From Oscillospiraceae bacterium (lineage in GTDB: Bacteria > Bacillota > Clostridia > UMGS1810): a stretch of DNA of 64,000 nucleotides. The stretch is taken from the NCBI GenBank assembly GCA_015068825.1, contig SVJU01000003.1:1-64000 (forward strand), in the 5' to 3' direction. Shown here piece by piece: positions 16,527 to 46,766 of the stretch (position 1 is its first letter; every line of letters starts with the position of its first letter). A program made the translations under genes and the position numbers. The notes under the pieces were generated by a model. The model was not told the origin of the DNA, searched no databases, and saw only the letters and a program-made list of their open reading frames with translations.

Positions 16527-16555
16527 TTAAAAAAAGCATACCACAAGGTATGCCA
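16527..16555 (-). terminator. Riboswitch expression-platform terminator
   Basis: Minus-strand stem GCATACC/GGTATGC with a TTGT loop and seven or more T residues, located between the TPP aptamer and the thiT ribosome site. It should stop transcription when TPP is bound. Confidence 0.88.
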
Positions 16556-16570
16556 CAAAATGCTATAAAA

Positions 16571-16654
16571 TCCCTCCGTTGGCATTACCCAAATCAGGTT
16601 ACAGGGTCTAAGCGTTACGCGCTTACTCTCAGCCTGCCAAAAGCAAGCTCCCCT
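16571..16654 (-). promoter_or_regulatory. TPP (thiamine pyrophosphate) riboswitch aptamer
   Basis: The minus strand has the classical THI-box elements in order: GGGGAGC, GGCTGAGAG, ACCCTG, ACCTGATTTGGGTAATGCC and GGAGGGA. These are the TPP-binding core of this riboswitch class. The aptamer is followed by a terminator (16527-16555) and then thiT, so excess TPP should switch thiamine uptake off. The 16655-16923 stretch upstream is AT-rich; I see no gene in it. Confidence 0.97.
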
Positions 16655-16923
16655 TTTTTTGCTTATTATAGCATCTTGTTTTATTATTGTCAATACACAT
16701 TTTTTGCTCATTACAAAGATTTATAGTTGTTATTCAAAGGTTTGATTTTTATTTATCTTGTATCATTATTATAATAACAAAGTCTTTAAAGATGTATATT
16801 TTTTACAAAAAATTTATCGTTCAAAATAATATTTCTAATAAAAACAGTAATATCTATGTAGTTTCACAATAAAAAATGATATAAAATAAAAATATAATTA
16901 TTAAAATCAAGGAGGAACTATTT

Positions 16924-17460
16924 ATGCAAAAAAGAAGAATTCTTTGTCTTTTGTTATGTTTAATACTTGTTTTTACACAAGGTGTCAACATAACAGCTCA
17001 AAATGAAAACAGTCCACAAATCAAAAATATTATTTACATGATACCTGATGGTGGTGGTATGGCTCCTTTTTTTCTTGCCGATAAGATAAAACAAAATGGT
17101 GGTTTCTCAAAAGAAATTTATCCCAATCTGACAGAAGTTGAAACAGGAGATGACATTTTATATACCGAAGGTCTTCATGTCGATGATTTATCTGTTTCGG
17201 TTTTGGAAAACAAAACCAATGTAAGATGCGACTCCTACAATCTGACAGACGACTACACAAAAACAGCACATCTTGTAGTATCATATTTTAAAGATGAAAA
17301 ATTGGTTGAATGTTTTGTTAAAGAAATAAGTTTTGAAGATAAACTTACATTCTTAAATGAATATATAACAAGAAAAACAGATGATTTTGACACTGTAAGC
17401 GCATTTGTATGGTCAGATATTTACGACATGACAATTTTAGGTGAATACGCAGTGCAATAA
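16924..17460 (+). CDS. Secreted protein: alkaline phosphatase N-terminal stub joined to a small C-terminal domain
   Basis: The 178-residue protein starts with a signal peptide (about 1-25). Residues 33-57 (IKNIIYMIPDGGGM...) look like the first beta strand and metal-site loop of the alkaline phosphatase superfamily (typical: KNVIxMIxDGxG). No nucleophile Ser/Thr or later metal ligands exist, so it cannot be an active phosphatase. Residues about 65-178 resemble a small beta-rich domain of clostridial secreted proteins that ends in an A-F-V-W-x-x-x-x-x-M pattern (AFVWSDIYDM here). The simplest reading is a large in-frame internal deletion. AGGAGG precedes the ATG, and a terminator follows, so it may still be expressed. 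I assign no function. Confidence 0.7.
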   Translation: MQKRRILCLLLCLILVFTQGVNITAQNENSPQIKNIIYMIPDGGGMAPFFLADKIKQNGGFSKEIYPNLTEVETGDDILYTEGLHVDDLSVSVLENKTNVRCDSYNLTDDYTKTAHLVVSYFKDEKLVECFVKEISFEDKLTFLNEYITRKTDDFDTVSAFVWSDIYDMTILGEYAVQ

Positions 17461-31731: not shown

Positions 31732-33873
31732 ATGAAAAAGCTATCAAGAATAATTTCACTTGTTATTATAACCGCAATAATTTCTTCTTTTTTACCGGTT
31801 TGTGCAAACAACAATATAAGTGTGTTTGTAAATAACTCAAGAATATCTTTTGATGTTGAACCGGTTATAATTAATAACAGAACTATGGTCCCTTTAAGAG
31901 CAATATTTGAAAAAATAGGAGCAGAAGTTGAATGGAATGAAACCACCAAAACTGCCGAAGCAACCTGTCAGGATACTTTGGTTTCTGTTAAAATAGATGA
32001 TGAAGTTATGTATGTAAACGGAGTAGCAAAAAAAATTGATGCTCCTGCAAAAATTGTTGAACAAAGAACATTAATTCCTCTTCGTGCGGTATGCGAAGCT
32101 TTTGACTGCACAGTAGACTGGGATGAAACCCTAAAAAAAGTTTCAATTGATGCTAAAGGTGTTAATCGACGAAATGGCGGTCTTTCAGCATTAAAGGTTG
32201 AAAAAAGCTTTGATGAAAGAATTGCGCTTCTTTACGAAAATATCTTAAATTCTGAAAAAATCAGAAATATATATAAACCCGAAGAAGCTTTAAACAAAGA
32301 AAATCCTTATACAGTTTTTATTTCAGTTTGTGACGCCAAAAGCCGTGCAATTGTATTTCACAATTCTGCTTTCAGCATAGAAGAAGCATTTAACAAAGCC
32401 TTCCAAAGTGCGAAAAAGTTTGTTTTTGAAAACAATTACAATGTTATCTGGATTAAAGCCGATGTTGTTGACAGTTTTGAAAAACTCACAACAGATGAAT
32501 TAAAAGTAAAAGTAACAAATTCTTTCAACGAATTTTACAGAAAAGGTATTTCTCTTGATGATAATTTTAACACTGCTTTTCTTGAAGCAGAAATAAACGG
32601 AAACAAAATGTTAGATTATAAAGAAACAAAAGAAATTGACCTTGATGTTATAAACACATATATTAAAAAATATCAGAAGCACACACCAAAGGTTAACAAA
32701 ATACCCGATCAGATAATAGCCTTCACCTGCATTGGATTTATGTGCGATGAAAACAGCAAAATATACGAATTAAACGGTTATGGAGATAACAAAGGTTTAG
32801 ACTATGGCAGAAGAAGTTATAAAGTAGACCGCGATGCTATTAAAGATGTGGTGTTAAGTGGTACATACTGGCTGGCAAATGAAATACAGGATGACGGATT
32901 ATTTAACTACGGATACTACCCTACTTATGACAAACTCTTTACCGCATACAACTATTTAAGACATTTATCGGGTATGTTCCCTCTTATGTGGACATACACA
33001 ATAACTGGTGATGAAAAGTTAAAAGAATCTGCAAAAATTACTCTTGAACGCTTTTTAAAACAAATTGTAAATAAATCTGAAAATGTTTCTTATTTATTGG
33101 ACAGAACCGAAATTAAGCTTGGCGGCAATGGTGTTGCAATTGTACTTCTTGATACATATATGCAAACCTTTGGAAAAGATGAAAAGCTAATTGCGCTTTG
33201 CGAAAGACTTGGCGAAGGAATGTTAGAGCTTCAAAATAAAGATGGTTCATATTACCACATTTTAAATCCTGATTTTACAAAAAAAGAAGAATACCGCACC
33301 GTTTATTATGACGGTGAAGCAACATACGGTTTTTGCGTGCTTTATAAATTAACAGGAAATAAAAAATGGCTTAATGCTGCACAAAAAGCTATGGAATATT
33401 TTATTGAAAATGATTACACACAATATAGAGACCATTGGGTAGCTTATGCAGTAAACGAAATTACCAAGCATATAGATGATGAAAGGTATTATGAATTTGG
33501 ATTAAAAAACCTTCAGCTTAATATGAAACGAATTTATAATCAGAAAACTTCGTATCATACATATATGGAGCTTCTTCTTGCAGGCTTTGAAATGTATGAC
33601 AGAATGATTGAAGAAAAAATAGAATGTGATTATCTTGAAGAATTTGATGAAGAGTTTTTTGCTCAGACAATCCAGCGAAGAGCCGAGCATATGCTAAATG
33701 GTTTCTTCTATCCGGAATATGCAATGTATCTTAAAAATCCTGAAAGTATTGTTGGTACATTCCATGTCAGACACGATGGATACAGAGTGCGTATTGACGA
33801 TGTAGACCATTTTATAGCAGGTTACTTCCATTACTGGCAACTTTACGATAAAGTTCAAAAATATTTAAAATAG
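31732..33873 (+). CDS. Secreted stalk-domain protein with alpha/alpha-toroid-like C-terminus
   Basis: A 713-residue exported protein. A signal peptide (1-24) is followed by a copper-amine-oxidase N-terminal ('stalk') domain (about 26-140) with the doubled motif NRTMVPLRAIFE and QRTLIPLRAVCE. A middle alpha/beta region (about 150-370) and an alpha-helical region (about 375-710) come next. The last region has repeated helical pairs, FNYGYYPTYDKLFTAYNYLRH, WTYTITGDEK and LYKLTGNKKWL, as in six-hairpin glycosidase or epimerase folds. I do not recognise a named family for residues 150-713 and give no activity. Conserved acidic and aromatic positions suggest carbohydrate binding. It stands alone, closed by a terminator. 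Confidence 0.75.
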   Translation: MKKLSRIISLVIITAIISSFLPVCANNNISVFVNNSRISFDVEPVIINNRTMVPLRAIFEKIGAEVEWNETTKTAEATCQDTLVSVKIDDEVMYVNGVAKKIDAPAKIVEQRTLIPLRAVCEAFDCTVDWDETLKKVSIDAKGVNRRNGGLSALKVEKSFDERIALLYENILNSEKIRNIYKPEEALNKENPYTVFISVCDAKSRAIVFHNSAFSIEEAFNKAFQSAKKFVFENNYNVIWIKADVVDSFEKLTTDELKVKVTNSFNEFYRKGISLDDNFNTAFLEAEINGNKMLDYKETKEIDLDVINTYIKKYQKHTPKVNKIPDQIIAFTCIGFMCDENSKIYELNGYGDNKGLDYGRRSYKVDRDAIKDVVLSGTYWLANEIQDDGLFNYGYYPTYDKLFTAYNYLRHLSGMFPLMWTYTITGDEKLKESAKITLERFLKQIVNKSENVSYLLDRTEIKLGGNGVAIVLLDTYMQTFGKDEKLIALCERLGEGMLELQNKDGSYYHILNPDFTKKEEYRTVYYDGEATYGFCVLYKLTGNKKWLNAAQKAMEYFIENDYTQYRDHWVAYAVNEITKHIDDERYYEFGLKNLQLNMKRIYNQKTSYHTYMELLLAGFEMYDRMIEEKIECDYLEEFDEEFFAQTIQRRAEHMLNGFFYPEYAMYLKNPESIVGTFHVRHDGYRVRIDDVDHFIAGYFHYWQLYDKVQKYLK

Positions 33874-36512: not shown

Positions 36513-36542
36513 ATTGTGATAGTATACAAGGAGATTTGTTTT

Positions 36543-37928
36543 ATGATACATAAATATAAACTTGGCGGATACAACATTGTGCTTGATATTTCGTCAGGCT
36601 CGGTACATGTGGTGGATAATGTTGCCTACGACATAATTGATATTTTTGAAGATAATGATAAAAATACCATTATTGAAAAAATATCGGAAAAATATGCTGA
36701 TAATAAAGATATTACAAAAAACGATATAGAAGAATGTTACTTACAAATTGAAGAATTAAAAAATAATGGTCAGCTTTTTGCTCCCGATACATTTGAAGAT
36801 AAAGCAGGGCATTTAAAACAAAAAACATCGGGAGTTATAAAGGCGCTTTGCCTTCATGTAGCACACACCTGCAACTTAAACTGTTCATACTGCTTTGCAA
36901 GTCAGGGAAAATATCACGGCGAGCGCGATGTGATGAGCTTTGAGGTTGGAAAAAGAGCACTTGATTTTCTTGTTGAAAATTCGGGAACAAGAAAAAACCT
37001 TGAGGTTGACTTTTTTGGCGGCGAGCCGCTTATGAACTTTGATGTTGTGAAAAAACTTGTTGAGTATGCAAGAAGCATTGAAAAAGAAAAAAACAAAAAC
37101 TTCCGTTTCACATTAACAACAAACGGTGTTCTGGTTGATGACGATGTTATAGAATTTGCAAACAAAGAAATGAGCAATGTTGTTTTGAGTCTTGACGGCA
37201 GAAAAGAAGTTCACGACCGTTACAGAGTTGACTATAACGGAAACGGCAGCTGGGATAAGATTGTTCCTAAATTTCAAAAATTTGTAACTCTTAGAGGCGG
37301 CAAAAACTACTATATGCGTGGCACCTTTACACATGCAAACCCCGATTTTTTAGAAGATATCAAAAAAATGCTTGAGCTTGGTTTTTATGAGCTTAGTATG
37401 GAGCCAGTTGTGTGTGCCCCCGGCGATAAAGAAGAATTAACCGAAGAAGATTTACCAATAGTACTTGACCAGTATGAAAAGTTAGCAAATCTTATGATAG
37501 AATACGATAAAAAAGGCACACCATTTACCTTCTATCACTATATGATTGATTTAGAAGATGGCCCTTGTATTTACAAAAGAATTTCGGGCTGTGGCTCAGG
37601 AACTGAATATATGGCAGTTACACCCTGGGGTGATTTATACCCATGCCATCAGTTTGTTGGTGAAGAAAAGTTTAAGCTTGGCGATATTTATAACGGTGTT
37701 ACAAATACGAAAATTCAGCAAAGCTTTTCAGATTGTAATGTTTATGCACGCCCCGACTGCAAGGACTGCTGGGCAAAGCTATATTGCTCTGGCGGATGCA
37801 GTGCAAATGCATATCATTCAACAGGCTCTGTCAAGGGTGTTTACAAATACGGATGTGAGCTTTTTAAAAAGAGAATGGAATGTGCTATTATGGTTGCAAT
37901 ATCAAGAGCATTCAGTGAGGAAGAATAA
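36543..37928 (+). CDS. scfB: SCIFF maturase, radical SAM/SPASM thioether synthase
   Basis: A 461-residue radical SAM enzyme. The N-terminal part (1-90) resembles a RiPP recognition element. The SAM cluster cysteines are Cys110, Cys114 and Cys117 in CNLNCSYC, followed by FFGGEPLMNFD. The C-terminal SPASM/twitch region carries many cysteines: CGSGTEYMAV, PCHQF, CNVYARPDCKDCWAKLYCSGGC and a final Cys in KYGCELF. It installs thioether bonds in the SCIFF peptide. I start it at the ATG at 36543, 9 nt after AAGGAG; an upstream GTG precedes the ribosome site. The following decarboxylase gene overlaps it by 1 bp. Confidence 0.96.
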   Translation: MIHKYKLGGYNIVLDISSGSVHVVDNVAYDIIDIFEDNDKNTIIEKISEKYADNKDITKNDIEECYLQIEELKNNGQLFAPDTFEDKAGHLKQKTSGVIKALCLHVAHTCNLNCSYCFASQGKYHGERDVMSFEVGKRALDFLVENSGTRKNLEVDFFGGEPLMNFDVVKKLVEYARSIEKEKNKNFRFTLTTNGVLVDDDVIEFANKEMSNVVLSLDGRKEVHDRYRVDYNGNGSWDKIVPKFQKFVTLRGGKNYYMRGTFTHANPDFLEDIKKMLELGFYELSMEPVVCAPGDKEELTEEDLPIVLDQYEKLANLMIEYDKKGTPFTFYHYMIDLEDGPCIYKRISGCGSGTEYMAVTPWGDLYPCHQFVGEEKFKLGDIYNGVTNTKIQQSFSDCNVYARPDCKDCWAKLYCSGGCSANAYHSTGSVKGVYKYGCELFKKRMECAIMVAISRAFSEEE

Positions 37929-39275: not shown

Positions 39276-39308
39276 AAAAGACCCATTGGATATCCAATGG
39301 GTTTTTTA
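39276..39308 (+). terminator. Intrinsic terminator
   Basis: A perfect palindrome ACCCATTGG/CCAATGGGT followed by TTTTTT, closing the SCIFF operon. A-rich on the other side, so it may also end the convergent gene. Confidence 0.92.
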
Positions 39309-39319
39309 TTTATTTTAAA

Positions 39320-40114
39320 TTATTCTTCAATAATTTCTTCTTCGATTATTTCTTCTTCAATAATCTCTTCTTCAATGATTTCTTCTTCAATGATTTCTTC
39401 TTCAATGATTTCTTCTTCGATTACTTCTTCAATAATCTCTTCTTCAATGATTGTTTCTTCGATAATTACTTCTTCAATTACTTCTTCAACTACTTCTTCA
39501 ACTTCAACAGTTGCAATCATAACTTTCTTTTCTGCGCCATCCCAGTCAACCTTGCAACCAAAAGCTTCTGATACTGCACGAAGTGGAATTAAAGTTCTGT
39601 CATTTACAATCTGAGCAGCAACATCTAATTCAACAGCTTCATTTCCAACAAAAAGTGTTGGTGTACCAATCTGTAAAACAACGCTTGTTTCTTCTTTGAA
39701 AGCAGAAACTGTTTTTGTTTCGTCATCCCAGTTAACAACTGCACCAAGTGCTTCAAAAATAACTCTTAAAGGAACCATTGTTCTATCGTTAATTATAACA
39801 GGGTCAACATCAAATACTAAAGCTTCGCCGTCTAATTCAACACTGATTGCTTTTTCAGCAGTTTCTTCAACTACTTCTTCAACAATTATTTCTTCTGTAA
39901 CTTCTTCAATAACTGTTTCTTCAACAATTATTTCTTCTGTAACTTCTTCGATAACTGTTTCTTCAACAATTACTTCTTCTGTAACTTCTTCGATAACTGT
40001 TTCTTCAACTACTACCTCTTCAGTTACTTCTTCAACAACTGTTTCTTCAGCAAATGCCATTGTGCAAGATAAAATCATAGCAACTGCCAAAATGATACTT
40101 AAAAATTTTTTCAT
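39320..40114 (-). CDS. Secreted stalk-domain protein flanked by Glu/Ile/Val repeats
   Basis: A 264-residue exported protein. Signal peptide 1-22 (ALA-like cut at MAFA-EE) is followed by an acidic repeat (23-86), a copper-amine-oxidase-N stalk domain (89-200) with NDRTMVPLRVIFE and NDRTLIPLRAVSE, and a second acidic repeat to the end (201-264). The first repeat has three copies of a 14-residue unit (VEETVIEEVTEEII), the second mainly a 5-residue unit IIEEE. The paired glutamates alternate with branched aliphatics. No enzyme motif is visible. Role is unknown: a surface spacer or a protein that self-assembles into beta-structure is possible. Monocistronic. The family is common on clostridial surfaces. 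Confidence 0.8.
   Translation of the reverse strand: MKKFLSIILAVAMILSCTMAFAEETVVEEVTEEVVVEETVIEEVTEEVIVEETVIEEVTEEIIVEETVIEEVTEEIIVEEVVEETAEKAISVELDGEALVFDVDPVIINDRTMVPLRVIFEALGAVVNWDDETKTVSAFKEETSVVLQIGTPTLFVGNEAVELDVAAQIVNDRTLIPLRAVSEAFGCKVDWDGAEKKVMIATVEVEEVVEEVIEEVIIEETIIEEEIIEEVIEEEIIEEEIIEEEIIEEEIIEEEIIEEEIIEE
39323..39514. repeat. Tandem repeat, 15-bp unit, C-terminal acidic repeat
   Basis: A series of 15-bp units of the AATGATTTCTTCTTC/AATAATTTCTTCTTC type (plus strand), coding the pentapeptide IIEEE in the minus-strand gene. The array is nearly perfect at 39323-39425 and more diverged toward 39514. In-frame unit length means copy changes keep the reading frame. Confidence 0.88.
39851..40048. 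repeat. Tandem repeat, 42-bp unit, N-terminal acidic repeat
   Basis: Three nearly identical 42-bp copies plus partial ones, each coding a 14-residue unit with two Glu-Glu pairs. The copies differ by a few silent or conservative changes. Confidence 0.85.
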
Positions 40115-40143
40115 CCTTTGTTTCCTCCAATTTTAATTTATTT

Positions 40144-41174: not shown

Positions 41175-41203
41175 ATTCTACATCATTAATTACCAGTTGT
41201 CAA
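41175..41203 (-). promoter_or_regulatory. Promoter of the DUF3048 gene
   Basis: TTGACA (41198-41203), 17-nt spacer, TAGAAT (41175-41180) on the minus strand. Confidence 0.82.
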
Positions 41204-42297: not shown

Positions 42298-43085
42298 TTA
42301 TGCAGTTTTAATTTCAAGACGAAGCTTATCTGATATCATAGCAATAAACTCCGAATTTGTAGGTTTACCTTTACTGCTTAAAATCGTATAGCCAAACATT
42401 TCGTCTAAAACTTCAGGGTCACCTCTGTCCCATGCAACCTCAATTGCGTGTCTTATAGCTCTTTCCACCCTTGAAGATGTAGTATTGTATTTTTTAGCCA
42501 CAGAAGGATACAAAATTTTGTAACCGAATTTATGGTATCCATATCGTTAATAACCATAATTATTGCATCACGCATATACTGATATCCCTTAATATGTGCA
42601 GGAACACCAATTTTTTGAATAATCTGGGTAACACCCATTTCTAAATCAAAATTTCCGTTTGAATTTATATTTTTAAAATTAACTGTTTTAAAAGGTGACA
42701 TATTGTCTTTAAACTCTCTTATTCTTTCTTCAATTACCGAAAGTTCAACAGGTTTAATTATGTAATACTTTGCACCAAGATTCATTGCTGTTTTTGTAAG
42801 TCTGTCATTGCCAATTGCCGAAATAACAATAACATTAGGCTTTTTTGTAAGAGTTGAATTTGCATTTATTTTGCTAAGAACCCCAAAACCGTCAAGATTT
42901 GGCATAACTACATCAACCAAAAGAACATCAGGTTTTGTCTGGAGAACCATTTCGTATGCCTCTTTTCCATCAAATGCGGCACCAACAAACTCAATTCCCT
43001 CACAATGTGTAAGATGATCTCTCATTGTTCTGCAAAATTCCTTATTATCGTCAGCAACAACCACTCTTATCTTATTATTCATCAT
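42298..43085 (-). pseudogene. spo0A: Spo0A sporulation master regulator, frameshifted in the DNA-binding domain
   Basis: Spo0A is the response regulator that starts sporulation. The receiver domain is intact: acidic pocket VVADDN, phospho-acceptor Asp in LLVDVVMPNLDG and Lys in YIIKPVE. The DNA-binding domain begins normally (IIQKIGVPAHIKGYQYMRDA, then INSVTK) but the frame then breaks. The rest of the domain continues in another frame from about 42513 to 42298 ([20 protein letters not shown], then ending in [10 protein letters not shown] and DKLRL). A one-base loss in an A4T4 run at 42512-42519 explains it: five A or five T would restore T-K-I/F-L-Y-P. As given, a 209-residue product ends in an unrelated 16-residue tail at 42453, missing the recognition helix. 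Start: ATG at 43085 or 43082 after GGAGGAG. Confidence 0.9.
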
Positions 43086-43247
43086 TAACTCCTCCAATAT
43101 TTTGTTTTTTGTAATTTCATTATATATTTCGTTGTATCTATTTACAACAAAGTCGCTTTTATTCGATTTTTATTTCCAAATATTTACAAATATGTATATT
43201 ATTTACAATTAGTTTTTTAAAAAAAGCAGACTTTTTCTTAGTAATTA

Positions 43248-44206: not shown

Positions 44207-44236
44207 AAAAGACGGGATGTTTATCCCGTCTTTTTT
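44207..44236 (+). terminator. Bidirectional intrinsic terminator
   Basis: AAAAGACGGGAT/ATCCCGTCTTTT hairpin with T run, between convergent genes; its right edge touches the stop codon of the 843-residue gene. Confidence 0.9.
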
Positions 44237-46766
44237 AGTGTAGCCACAAAATATTAAGTTCTTTGTTCCAATCAACATCATATCCCATATAATCAGTAAT
44301 AAATGTTAAGGGGATATGTATTTCTCCGTTTATAAGCACAGGTTTTGCTTTTAAATCAACCATTTCGCCTTTTATTTCGGCTTTTGTTTCATTAACATTC
44401 ATTTTTGCTGTAAAATATATTTTTTTGATTGTGATATCGCCAGTTTGTTCATTATATAAAAGGTCATAATCGGTTTTTTCACAAATTCTTCTCATTGCAA
44501 TATACCACATATTATCTTTTAAAACAGGTTTGTCCTTTTGAACAATAATTTCGTCCTTGAGCCTTATTACAAGATCGTTATTAAACGAAGGAATTGCTAT
44601 TCTTGTTTTGTTGTTTACAAGAATTTCATTTTCTATTCTGTCAACTGTTACAATGTCTTCGCCTGCATCTATTTTTTCAAAGTATACCCCATTTTTTGAA
44701 AGATACAAAAAATTCTGGTCGGTGTAATAGAAAATATCATTAAGCGCGCCTATATATTTTGGTCTTTCTATTTCATAATCAAGCTTGGTAAACGGCATAT
44801 CAGGTGTTGACATAAAGAAAAATCCATACTTTGTACAGCTTATTTCGATTTTATTATTTCCGTAAGGAATGTTAACTGTAGATAATTCAAACCAGTCCTT
44901 ACCATTTTCGCTGTAATAATTCTTTCCTGCACAAACATAATATTTGCCCATTGAATAACCTATCTTTGTAGGATATTCGTCAAATGTTTTTTCACTTACA
45001 AGATTAAAATCTTTATCAAAAATATAAACCTTATTATAAAAATCAAGTACACTTGTGTAATAAGACGGAGCGCCGTCGTATTCAGCCCATTTTGCAATGT
45101 ATCCGCCTTCGGTTGCAATTATGTCGTAATGTCTGCCTTCGGCTTTAAAAATTTCTTTTGCTTCATTACTAAGATTTATCTTTTCAAAATTTACAAGGTT
45201 ACTGCTTTTGTATAAATCAAGATTGTTCCATACAAGAAAATCTTTTCCGTCTGTTTTTATTCCCTTTTTAGCCACCTCAAATTGCGAAGGCTCAAATTTA
45301 ACCTCATAAGGAGAATCCTTTAAAACAAAAGAGTTAATCATACCGCCATTATTGTTTGCAGGAAGGATAACATCAATATAAAATGTTGTTTTTTTATTTT
45401 TTTCAAGCTTTACACACGCCATTGTGTCAAGTGCACCATCACCCTTATTACCTTTTGAAATTGCATAAGGAAACACACTTTGCATATTTTCATCATACAA
45501 AATAACAATATTGTTTGAGCTTGTTTCAAGATTATAATAAACATATCTGTCAAAATTGCAACGGTTGTTTATGGTAACTTTATAATTTACCCTTACACCG
45601 TAGTTACCAAGGTTGCACGCCTCAAGATAGTTATCCTCATATCGTGTTACCAAACGGTTTGGAATAAACTTGTTTTCATCCTGCGGATTTTTTTCTTCAT
45701 CTGTGGATTTTGTATCTGTATGGAAAACATCAAAATACCACCACTCATCTTTTTTAATGTCGGGAACATCATCACCATAAAGATTTAATTTTTCTTCGTC
45801 TTTATATTTTATAACAAGCATATCTGACTCGGCGCACATATCTTTTGCCCATTTTGCATTTTGCGGATTTAAATTTGTAACCCATTTTTCTGTATATCTT
45901 CCGGCGGTATTATACTGATTGTAAATATTCACAGGTAAATATGCTCCGTCTTTATCCTTGTTGTTTATATTAAAGTTAAGTGTTGCACAAACCTTTGGAA
46001 GTGTTTCGGCAATACCTTTATATTGTCTTTCTCTTATATATCCGTCTTCTTTGGCGTTGTAATTATGATTACTTCTGTCCTTTAAAGTTCCTGTGTGTTT
46101 AAGTGCTGCAATATTAAAATCGCACTCACCCGACAAAACCTCAAAATCCATTAAAATATTAACAGGTTTTAAATACGGCACAACCGAATAATTGTCTATA
46201 TACTGGCTTAACCATACATTTTTTGTGTTGCTTATTCCAAACTTAACCTCGTTAAAATTGCCCGGATAATATCTTTTATACGAATTAACCTGATAAATAG
46301 GCATTTTAAGATAAGTTGCCCACGCATCCATACAGCTCCAGCTATCTTCGTATCTCTGCTCATTACCACCCGAATACAAGGTTTTAACATGCGGCATTTC
46401 ATAAGCAAGAGATGTAATTTTTATAACGGCGTTTGTTTTTGTTTCAAAAAGTCCGTCTACCTCTATTGAAAATCCTGGCTCAATTATTTTGCCCTCTTCG
46501 TTTTTTATACCTGTGTTATTAAGATTTGTTATAAAAACAGAATATTTACCGGGTTTTAACGAGGTGTTTTTCATTATATATCTGGCGTCAGGATTTGATT
46601 TGTCCGACAAATTTTCTCTTTCAATAGACTCAATATTGTTTTCGTATATGTAAGTTCCGCCGCCTGCCTCTTTAAAAACAAGGTCGCATGGTTCAATTCT
46701 TGCATAAGCAGTTCCAACTGCAAAAACAAATATTAAAAATATAAATATATTAATAAATTTTTTCAT
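44235..46766 (-). CDS. Large secreted protein with C-terminal stalk domain
   Basis: An 843-residue exported protein, signal peptide about 1-22 (ends in GTAYA). Residues 25-550 contain beta-rich material with no family I can name. About 560-740 has repeated patterns (YYTSVLDFYNKVYIFDKDF, MGKYYVCAGKNYYSENGKDW, TDQNFLYLSKNGVYFEKID) that look like beta-propeller or Kelch-like blades with S-x-D-G/N-G-x-x-F/W motifs. The last 95 residues form a copper-amine-oxidase-N domain (KPVLINGEIHIPLTFITDYMG) that ends two residues before the stop. Stalk domains are normally N-terminal in this organism's other proteins, so this order is reversed. GGAG precedes the ATG. Confidence 0.72.
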   Translation of the reverse strand: MKKFINIFIFLIFVFAVGTAYARIEPCDLVFKEAGGGTYIYENNIESIERENLSDKSNPDARYIMKNTSLKPGKYSVFITNLNNTGIKNEEGKIIEPGFSIEVDGLFETKTNAVIKITSLAYEMPHVKTLYSGGNEQRYEDSWSCMDAWATYLKMPIYQVNSYKRYYPGNFNEVKFGISNTKNVWLSQYIDNYSVVPYLKPVNILMDFEVLSGECDFNIAALKHTGTLKDRSNHNYNAKEDGYIRERQYKGIAETLPKVCATLNFNINNKDKDGAYLPVNIYNQYNTAGRYTEKWVTNLNPQNAKWAKDMCAESDMLVIKYKDEEKLNLYGDDVPDIKKDEWWYFDVFHTDTKSTDEEKNPQDENKFIPNRLVTRYEDNYLEACNLGNYGVRVNYKVTINNRCNFDRYVYYNLETSSNNIVILYDENMQSVFPYAISKGNKGDGALDTMACVKLEKNKKTTFYIDVILPANNNGGMINSFVLKDSPYEVKFEPSQFEVAKKGIKTDGKDFLVWNNLDLYKSSNLVNFEKINLSNEAKEIFKAEGRHYDIIATEGGYIAKWAEYDGAPSYYTSVLDFYNKVYIFDKDFNLVSEKTFDEYPTKIGYSMGKYYVCAGKNYYSENGKDWFELSTVNIPYGNNKIEISCTKYGFFFMSTPDMPFTKLDYEIERPKYIGALNDIFYYTDQNFLYLSKNGVYFEKIDAGEDIVTVDRIENEILVNNKTRIAIPSFNNDLVIRLKDEIIVQKDKPVLKDNMWYIAMRRICEKTDYDLLYNEQTGDITIKKIYFTAKMNVNETKAEIKGEMVDLKAKPVLINGEIHIPLTFITDYMGYDVDWNKELNILWLH

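Follow-up and report, generated by a model that had tools for sequence, protein, structure and literature searches.

PF07833 proteins and the stalk gene

Proteins with the PF07833 (Cu_amine_oxidN1, or 'stalk') domain are numerous in Clostridia, with dozens of matches in some genomes, and in the literature examined we saw no function established for those that stand alone. In the Cys-less Cu/Zn-SOD of Paenibacillus lautus, the N-terminal domain annotated as PF07833 forms a homodimer; there, the position of the second helix in the amine oxidase domain is occupied by the helix of one partner (PMC10432803). The scaffoldin OlpC also carries PF07833 (PMC3413522) and is elsewhere called cell-wall-tethered (PMC12811415). 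PF07833 proteins appear in a study of the bacterial surfaceome (PMC4137172). In Clostridium thermocellum, one was seen as a stained gel band when cellulose-affinity-purified and extracellular proteins were analysed (PMC6116742).

The window analysed here is a 64,000-nucleotide stretch of an Oscillospiraceae bacterium (contig SVJU01000003.1). A stalk-domain gene with the codon usage of highly expressed genes was found at 39320-40114 on the minus strand. It is a complete gene of 264 amino acids plus the stop, with an ATG start and a ribosome-binding site, GGAGG, 9 nt 5' of the ATG (40124-40128, minus strand). PF07833 was the only Pfam match in the protein, at residues 94-200 (39515-39835, minus strand; E 5e-39), scoring 133 bits, where the cut-off is 24.2, and covering profile positions 2-108 of 108. 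Two plus-strand open reading frames, 39297-39614 and 39696-40136, were mainly Ser/Thr/Ile-rich mirror images of the repeat arrays and were not favoured. An Rfam search of the locus gave no RNA element.

The original prediction of an exported protein agreed with a signal peptide at residues 1-22 (40049-40114, minus strand), MKKFLSIILAVAMILSCTMAFA^EE, which was clear as judged by eye and has a probable signal peptidase I cleavage at AFA^EE. The sequence MILSC at residues 13-17 is a loose fit to a lipobox. This match may be incidental, given that cleavage at AFA^EE would be typical of signal peptidase I and that relatives with signal peptides of similar shape have no Cys at position 17. No LPXTG, SLH or transmembrane tail was found in the sequence or by the Pfam scan, and the C-terminal end is EEIIEE. 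With the stalk domain as the only visible anchor, the protein may simply be released.

The window protein resembles exported Firmicutes proteins annotated as 'stalk domain-containing protein' in having a signal peptide and a full-length domain above the cut-off, and its domain is up to 57% identical to other domains of the PF07833 family. However, most relatives have an enzyme or another large region beside the domain, whereas the window protein has none, and no PF07833 relative examined had two acidic repeat arms or a tail matching its 56% Glu. The OlpC/ScaG scaffoldins of C. thermocellum and Acetivibrio cellulolyticus likewise have PF07833 in an exported protein, there tethered to the cell wall, but they carry cohesin, whereas the window protein has acidic arms only. 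Proteins of this kind are known, and the version with an arm on each side of the domain is an unusual one.

Structure of the domain and the arms

In the AlphaFold model (51 aligned sequences), the PF07833 domain had a pLDDT of about 97-98. Foldseek matched the domain, with a probability of 1.00, to the D1 stalk of the copper amine oxidase of E. coli (PDB 1OAC and related entries). The two have the same fold and superpose at 1.3-1.4 Å over 71-73 columns, 1OAC itself at 1.4 Å over 73 columns. The E. coli enzyme differs in having a catalytic domain, and the window protein is not an amine oxidase: its 264 residues contain the stalk domain alone and no catalytic domain with a topaquinone site and copper ligands. 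Within the PF07833 domain, the two halves resemble each other in sequence, with 50% identity over 36 residues. The P. lautus SOD (PDB 8IMD) is likewise exported and annotated as PF07833, yet at the chain level its fold match was poor (E 0.16, TM 0.17-0.21). The SOD has about one half-domain per chain and dimerises, whereas the window protein has both halves in one chain, and therefore dimerisation cannot be assumed.

The N-terminal arm was predicted to be disordered (pLDDT 42-50), and the C-terminal tail was modelled as a low-confidence helix (pLDDT 52-61). Both arms are built of EE pairs separated by one to three residues that are aliphatic or Thr. The hydropathy periods are 4.63 residues in the N-terminal arm and 4.85 in the C-terminal arm, and therefore Ile and Val would fall on every face of a helix or a strand. 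The hydropathy power at 2.0 (beta) and 3.6 (alpha) was within the range of shuffled arms. These periods, together with the lack of excess power at 2.0 or 3.6, do not support the original suggestion that the arms are amphipathic beta or fibre-like. Nor does the structural model, which gives disorder in the N-terminal arm and a low-confidence helix in the tail. A further suggestion, calcium binding, found no backing in known motifs: no RTX, EF-hand or dockerin type was seen by eye, GGxGxD or DxDxDG-type motifs were absent by eye, and the Pfam scan gave no such calcium-binding domain. With about 70 net negative charges, the protein may still bind cations non-specifically.

Sequence and divergence of the repeat arrays

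Tandem Repeats Finder (TRF) and the reading frame agreed on two independent in-frame arrays, which are read in the order 42-bp array, domain, 15-bp array, as first noted. The N-terminal array, residues 23-78 (39881-40048, minus strand), consists of four 14-residue (42-bp) units, EETVIEEVTEE(V/I)IV, and a short acidic bridge joins it to the PF07833 domain. TRF reported 4.3 copies of the 42-bp unit at 39875-40053, with 91% matches and a score of 281. The C-terminal acidic tail, residues 204-264 (39323-39505, minus strand), is built mostly of 15-bp (5-residue) units, reported as 11.2 copies at 39323-39487 with 81% matches and a score of 204. Unit lengths of 42 and 15 bp do allow the copy number to change without a frameshift. 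When codons were shuffled within each array (100 trials), the best TRF scores were 152 for the N-terminal and 180 for the C-terminal array, below those of the real arrays, and therefore their order, and not composition alone, is repetitive.

The Glu-Glu/Ile-Val patterning described at the outset was also correct. The mature protein has 83 acidic and 10 basic residues, with a calculated pI of 4.05 and a charge of about -73, and the net charges of the arms are about -28 and -34. Glu makes up 56% of the 61-residue C-terminal tail. The two arms together contain about 62 Glu, spaced by Ile/Val pairs, and Thr is a further regular element of the N-terminal array (EETVIEEVTEEIIV).

The last six C-terminal units are identical in protein sequence (EIIEE) and not in DNA. 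All four distinct codon variants among these six contiguous units are silent; a simple mutation model gives this a probability of 0.001, a test biased by the choice of protein-identical units. Among the four 14-residue N-terminal units, four of seven variants are silent and the other three are V/I exchanges (probability 0.05). The synonymous differences between copies argue against a very recent expansion, and the array sequences favour arrays old enough for drift at silent sites while the pattern was kept.

Codon usage

The codon adaptation index, computed against 21 ribosomal protein genes from this genome, was 0.836 for the whole stalk gene, 0.835 for the domain alone, and 0.846 and 0.827 for the arms, where it partly mirrors the duplicated unit. 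The comparison was made on the genes of the window and then widened to 61% of the genome. The 17 neighbouring genes had values of 0.60-0.71, and the ribosomal genes themselves 0.63-0.775. None of 2000 composition-matched random codon draws from the background usage attained the whole-gene value. Since the domain alone scored alike and no random draw reached this value, the repeats are not the cause of the high index.

Among 1005 open reading frames of at least 100 residues (1.22 Mb, 61% of the genome), the stalk gene ranked fifth, and it ranked first among the exported-like ones; these ranks are approximate, because reading-frame calling was mechanical and signal peptides were picked out by a crude filter. 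Its company in codon usage was L7/L12, phosphoglycerate kinase (PGK), EF-Ts and L13, which we named from their sequences. EF-Tu domain 3 had no match in the assembly (G000, rated 96% complete), probably because of an assembly gap, and EF-Tu was therefore not used as a yardstick of expression. With codon usage as the proxy, these values suggest that the stalk protein is among the most abundant exported proteins of the cell.

The neighbouring DUF3048 gene

A DUF3048 lipoprotein gene (PF11258 and PF17479; 40144-41142, minus strand) lies 29 nt upstream of the stalk gene on the same strand, and its codon usage is ordinary, with an index of 0.65. A consensus scan found a promoter-like site, TTGACA-17-TAGAAT (41175-41203, minus strand; 11 of 12 matches), 5' of the DUF3048 gene and none in the 29-nt gap, promoter-like sites in the region being no commoner than in shuffles. 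In the same scan, a terminator hairpin with a T-rich tail, common to both strands, was found about 18 nt past the stalk-gene stop (39281-39302, minus strand), with five terminator-like sites observed and 1.6 expected. This layout is consistent with a two-gene transcript from near 41175-41203, and the DUF3048 gene is the probable operon partner of the stalk gene.

The genus-mate retains the DUF3048 gene at 71% identity, but there a polysaccharide deacetylase gene comes next. For other family members, no stalk gene was found in the short flanks examined.

Relatives and distribution of acidic repeats

The genomes compared comprised one per species. In the single genus-mate genome (93% complete), no ortholog of the stalk gene was found; the gene was thus either gained in this lineage or lost in the mate, and it is not essential to the lineage. 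No relative in the genus and family had both acidic arms. A scan of GTDB contigs gave 11 loci, which matched in the domain only. A pattern joining the end of the domain to an EE tail had this gene as its sole match in 292 genomes, and distant forms could escape such a pattern, which is exact at the codon level. No other tail like this one was found among some 60 stalk proteins examined.

Of 391 Clostridia genomes, 40 contained repeats of the EE-x2-EE type (with V, I, T or A). Most of these repeats lay in unrelated proteins, and many such proteins are intracellular. EE/VV repeats occur in the intracellular proteins S1, S2 and MscL of Clostridia, and therefore such tails need no surface role. 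As it is spread over unrelated proteins, the motif is no family marker, and only its combination with the stalk domain is unusual. A 77-residue predicted lipoprotein made up almost entirely of EE-(V/T/A)2 repeats after the lipobox Cys was also observed (L094; G057 contig C34, near 17164-17313).

The genome contains 11 PF07833 matches in all. A second exported PF07833 protein of 341 residues (C55:20513-21535, plus strand; L133:17514-18536; codon adaptation index 0.798) resembles the window protein in its export, its optimised codons and its acidic Val/Ile/Thr segments at both ends, after the signal peptide and at its terminus ...EEAVIEEVTVEE. It differs in having an extra region before the domain and no tandem arrays. 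Among exported-like proteins in the sampled 61% of the genome, a motif of the ...EEAVIEEVTVEE type was found only in these two. Relatives of similar build are encoded by further genomes in the family and class, and the best match of the second protein in the genus-mate has an acidic tail of different composition. Folded alone, without an alignment, the second protein gave a mean pLDDT of 30.7. An N-acetylmuramoyl-L-alanine amidase of the same genome combines PF07833 with a linker that is 52% acidic, and in a member of the same family (L087) acidic repeats precede the PF07833 domain. In these sequences, acidic segments beside PF07833 recur, and their sequences do not. Within the window, two more exported PF07833 proteins (31732-33873, plus strand, and 44235-46766, minus strand) have long regions unmatched in Pfam.

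Possible roles of the arms

We tentatively propose, at somewhat short of an even chance, that the gene encodes an abundant envelope-associated stalk protein whose two flexible polyanionic arms serve as a charged spacer or a cation-holding brush. The single PF07833 domain is predicted to fold into a compact core, from the two ends of which the long arms would project. By analogy with other exported PF07833 proteins, the core would keep the protein attached to the cell wall or to itself. As a charged brush, the arms would keep surfaces apart, hold water and divalent cations, and keep an aliphatic-rich segment soluble. Selection would then act on composition and on the pairwise EE/(I,V,T) pattern, and not on exact sequence or copy number. 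In favour of this proposal are the high codon index, the disorder of the N-terminal arm and the lack of alpha or beta periodicity in both arms, the mainly silent differences between units, the recurrence of acidic segments beside PF07833, and the papers that place PF07833 proteins at the cell surface or outside the cell. Against it, codon usage stands in for expression, and in the DUF3048 gene, which is probably co-transcribed, it is ordinary (0.65); no anchor can be seen beyond the stalk domain; the gene is missing from the genus-mate; and EE/VV repeats are also intracellular.

The main rival to the spacer or brush is neutral low-complexity growth, in which slippage in purine-rich codon runs inflated the linkers, the exported and soluble protein tolerated it, and only the stalk domain matters. 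Similar EE-VV tails have arisen independently in unrelated proteins of 40 of the 391 Clostridia genomes, no relative has the same arms, and two different units flank one domain, as expected of independent slippage events. Yet most changes from copy to copy are silent and the remainder V/I, the arm codons are optimised (0.846 and 0.827, though these partly reflect the duplicated unit), and an abundant protein of which about half is unused acidic repeat would be costly; we consider neutral growth somewhat unlikely. It is very improbable that the arms are a length-variable surface spacer whose copy number shifts between strains under immune or phage pressure: the units are in frame and the location is probably surface or secreted, but the copies have diverged at synonymous sites, unlike those of a rapidly slipping array.

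Assembly dependent on Ca or Mg is unlikely. Here the Glu residues would be neutralised by cations or low pH, and the arms would collapse or form beta or helical bundles, giving a surface gel or fibres. The roughly 62 Glu with Ile/Val pairs, the mature charge of about -73, the low-confidence helix of the tail and the homodimer made by PF07833 in the P. lautus SOD (PMC10432803) point in this direction, whereas the arms show no known calcium motif and no amphipathic period, and a domain that has both halves and matches D1 need not form the SOD half-domain dimer. We also regard as quite improbable a secreted subunit that docks on the DUF3048 lipoprotein with the arms as binding segments. The shared strand, the 29-nt gap without a promoter-like site and the terminator after the stalk gene suit such a partnership, but the genus-mate keeps DUF3048 (71%) beside a polysaccharide deacetylase gene, the flanks in the family are without a stalk gene, and the codon usage of the two genes is far apart (0.65 and 0.836).

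An extension of the brush proposal, which we hold to be decidedly unlikely, is a polyanionic protein coat, in which the Glu/Ile-Val arms would form a cation-holding layer on a Gram-positive-type surface, with the second stalk protein contributing a tail of the same kind. If true, it would be a protein counterpart to the charge of wall teichoic acid. Codon usage like that of L7/L12 and a glycolytic enzyme points to a quantitatively important and little-studied exported protein, and one that is a simple place to test the role of the stalk domain. The arms are a compact natural case of apparently selected acidic low-complexity repeats, with a period of 4.6-4.9 that matches neither helix nor strand.

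Other features of the window

A Spo0A-like gene at 42298-43097 (minus strand) is apparently split. The open reading frame at 42453-43097 contains the receiver domain and matches Spo0A_C (104 positions) over no more than its first 39, and an overlapping one in another frame (42298-42513) reads like the rest, reflecting a frameshift mutation or an assembly error. A SCIFF-peptide radical SAM maturase is encoded at 36516-37928 on the plus strand (TIGR03974, E 9e-229), and a TPP riboswitch lies at 16554-16664 on the minus strand (65.6 bits).
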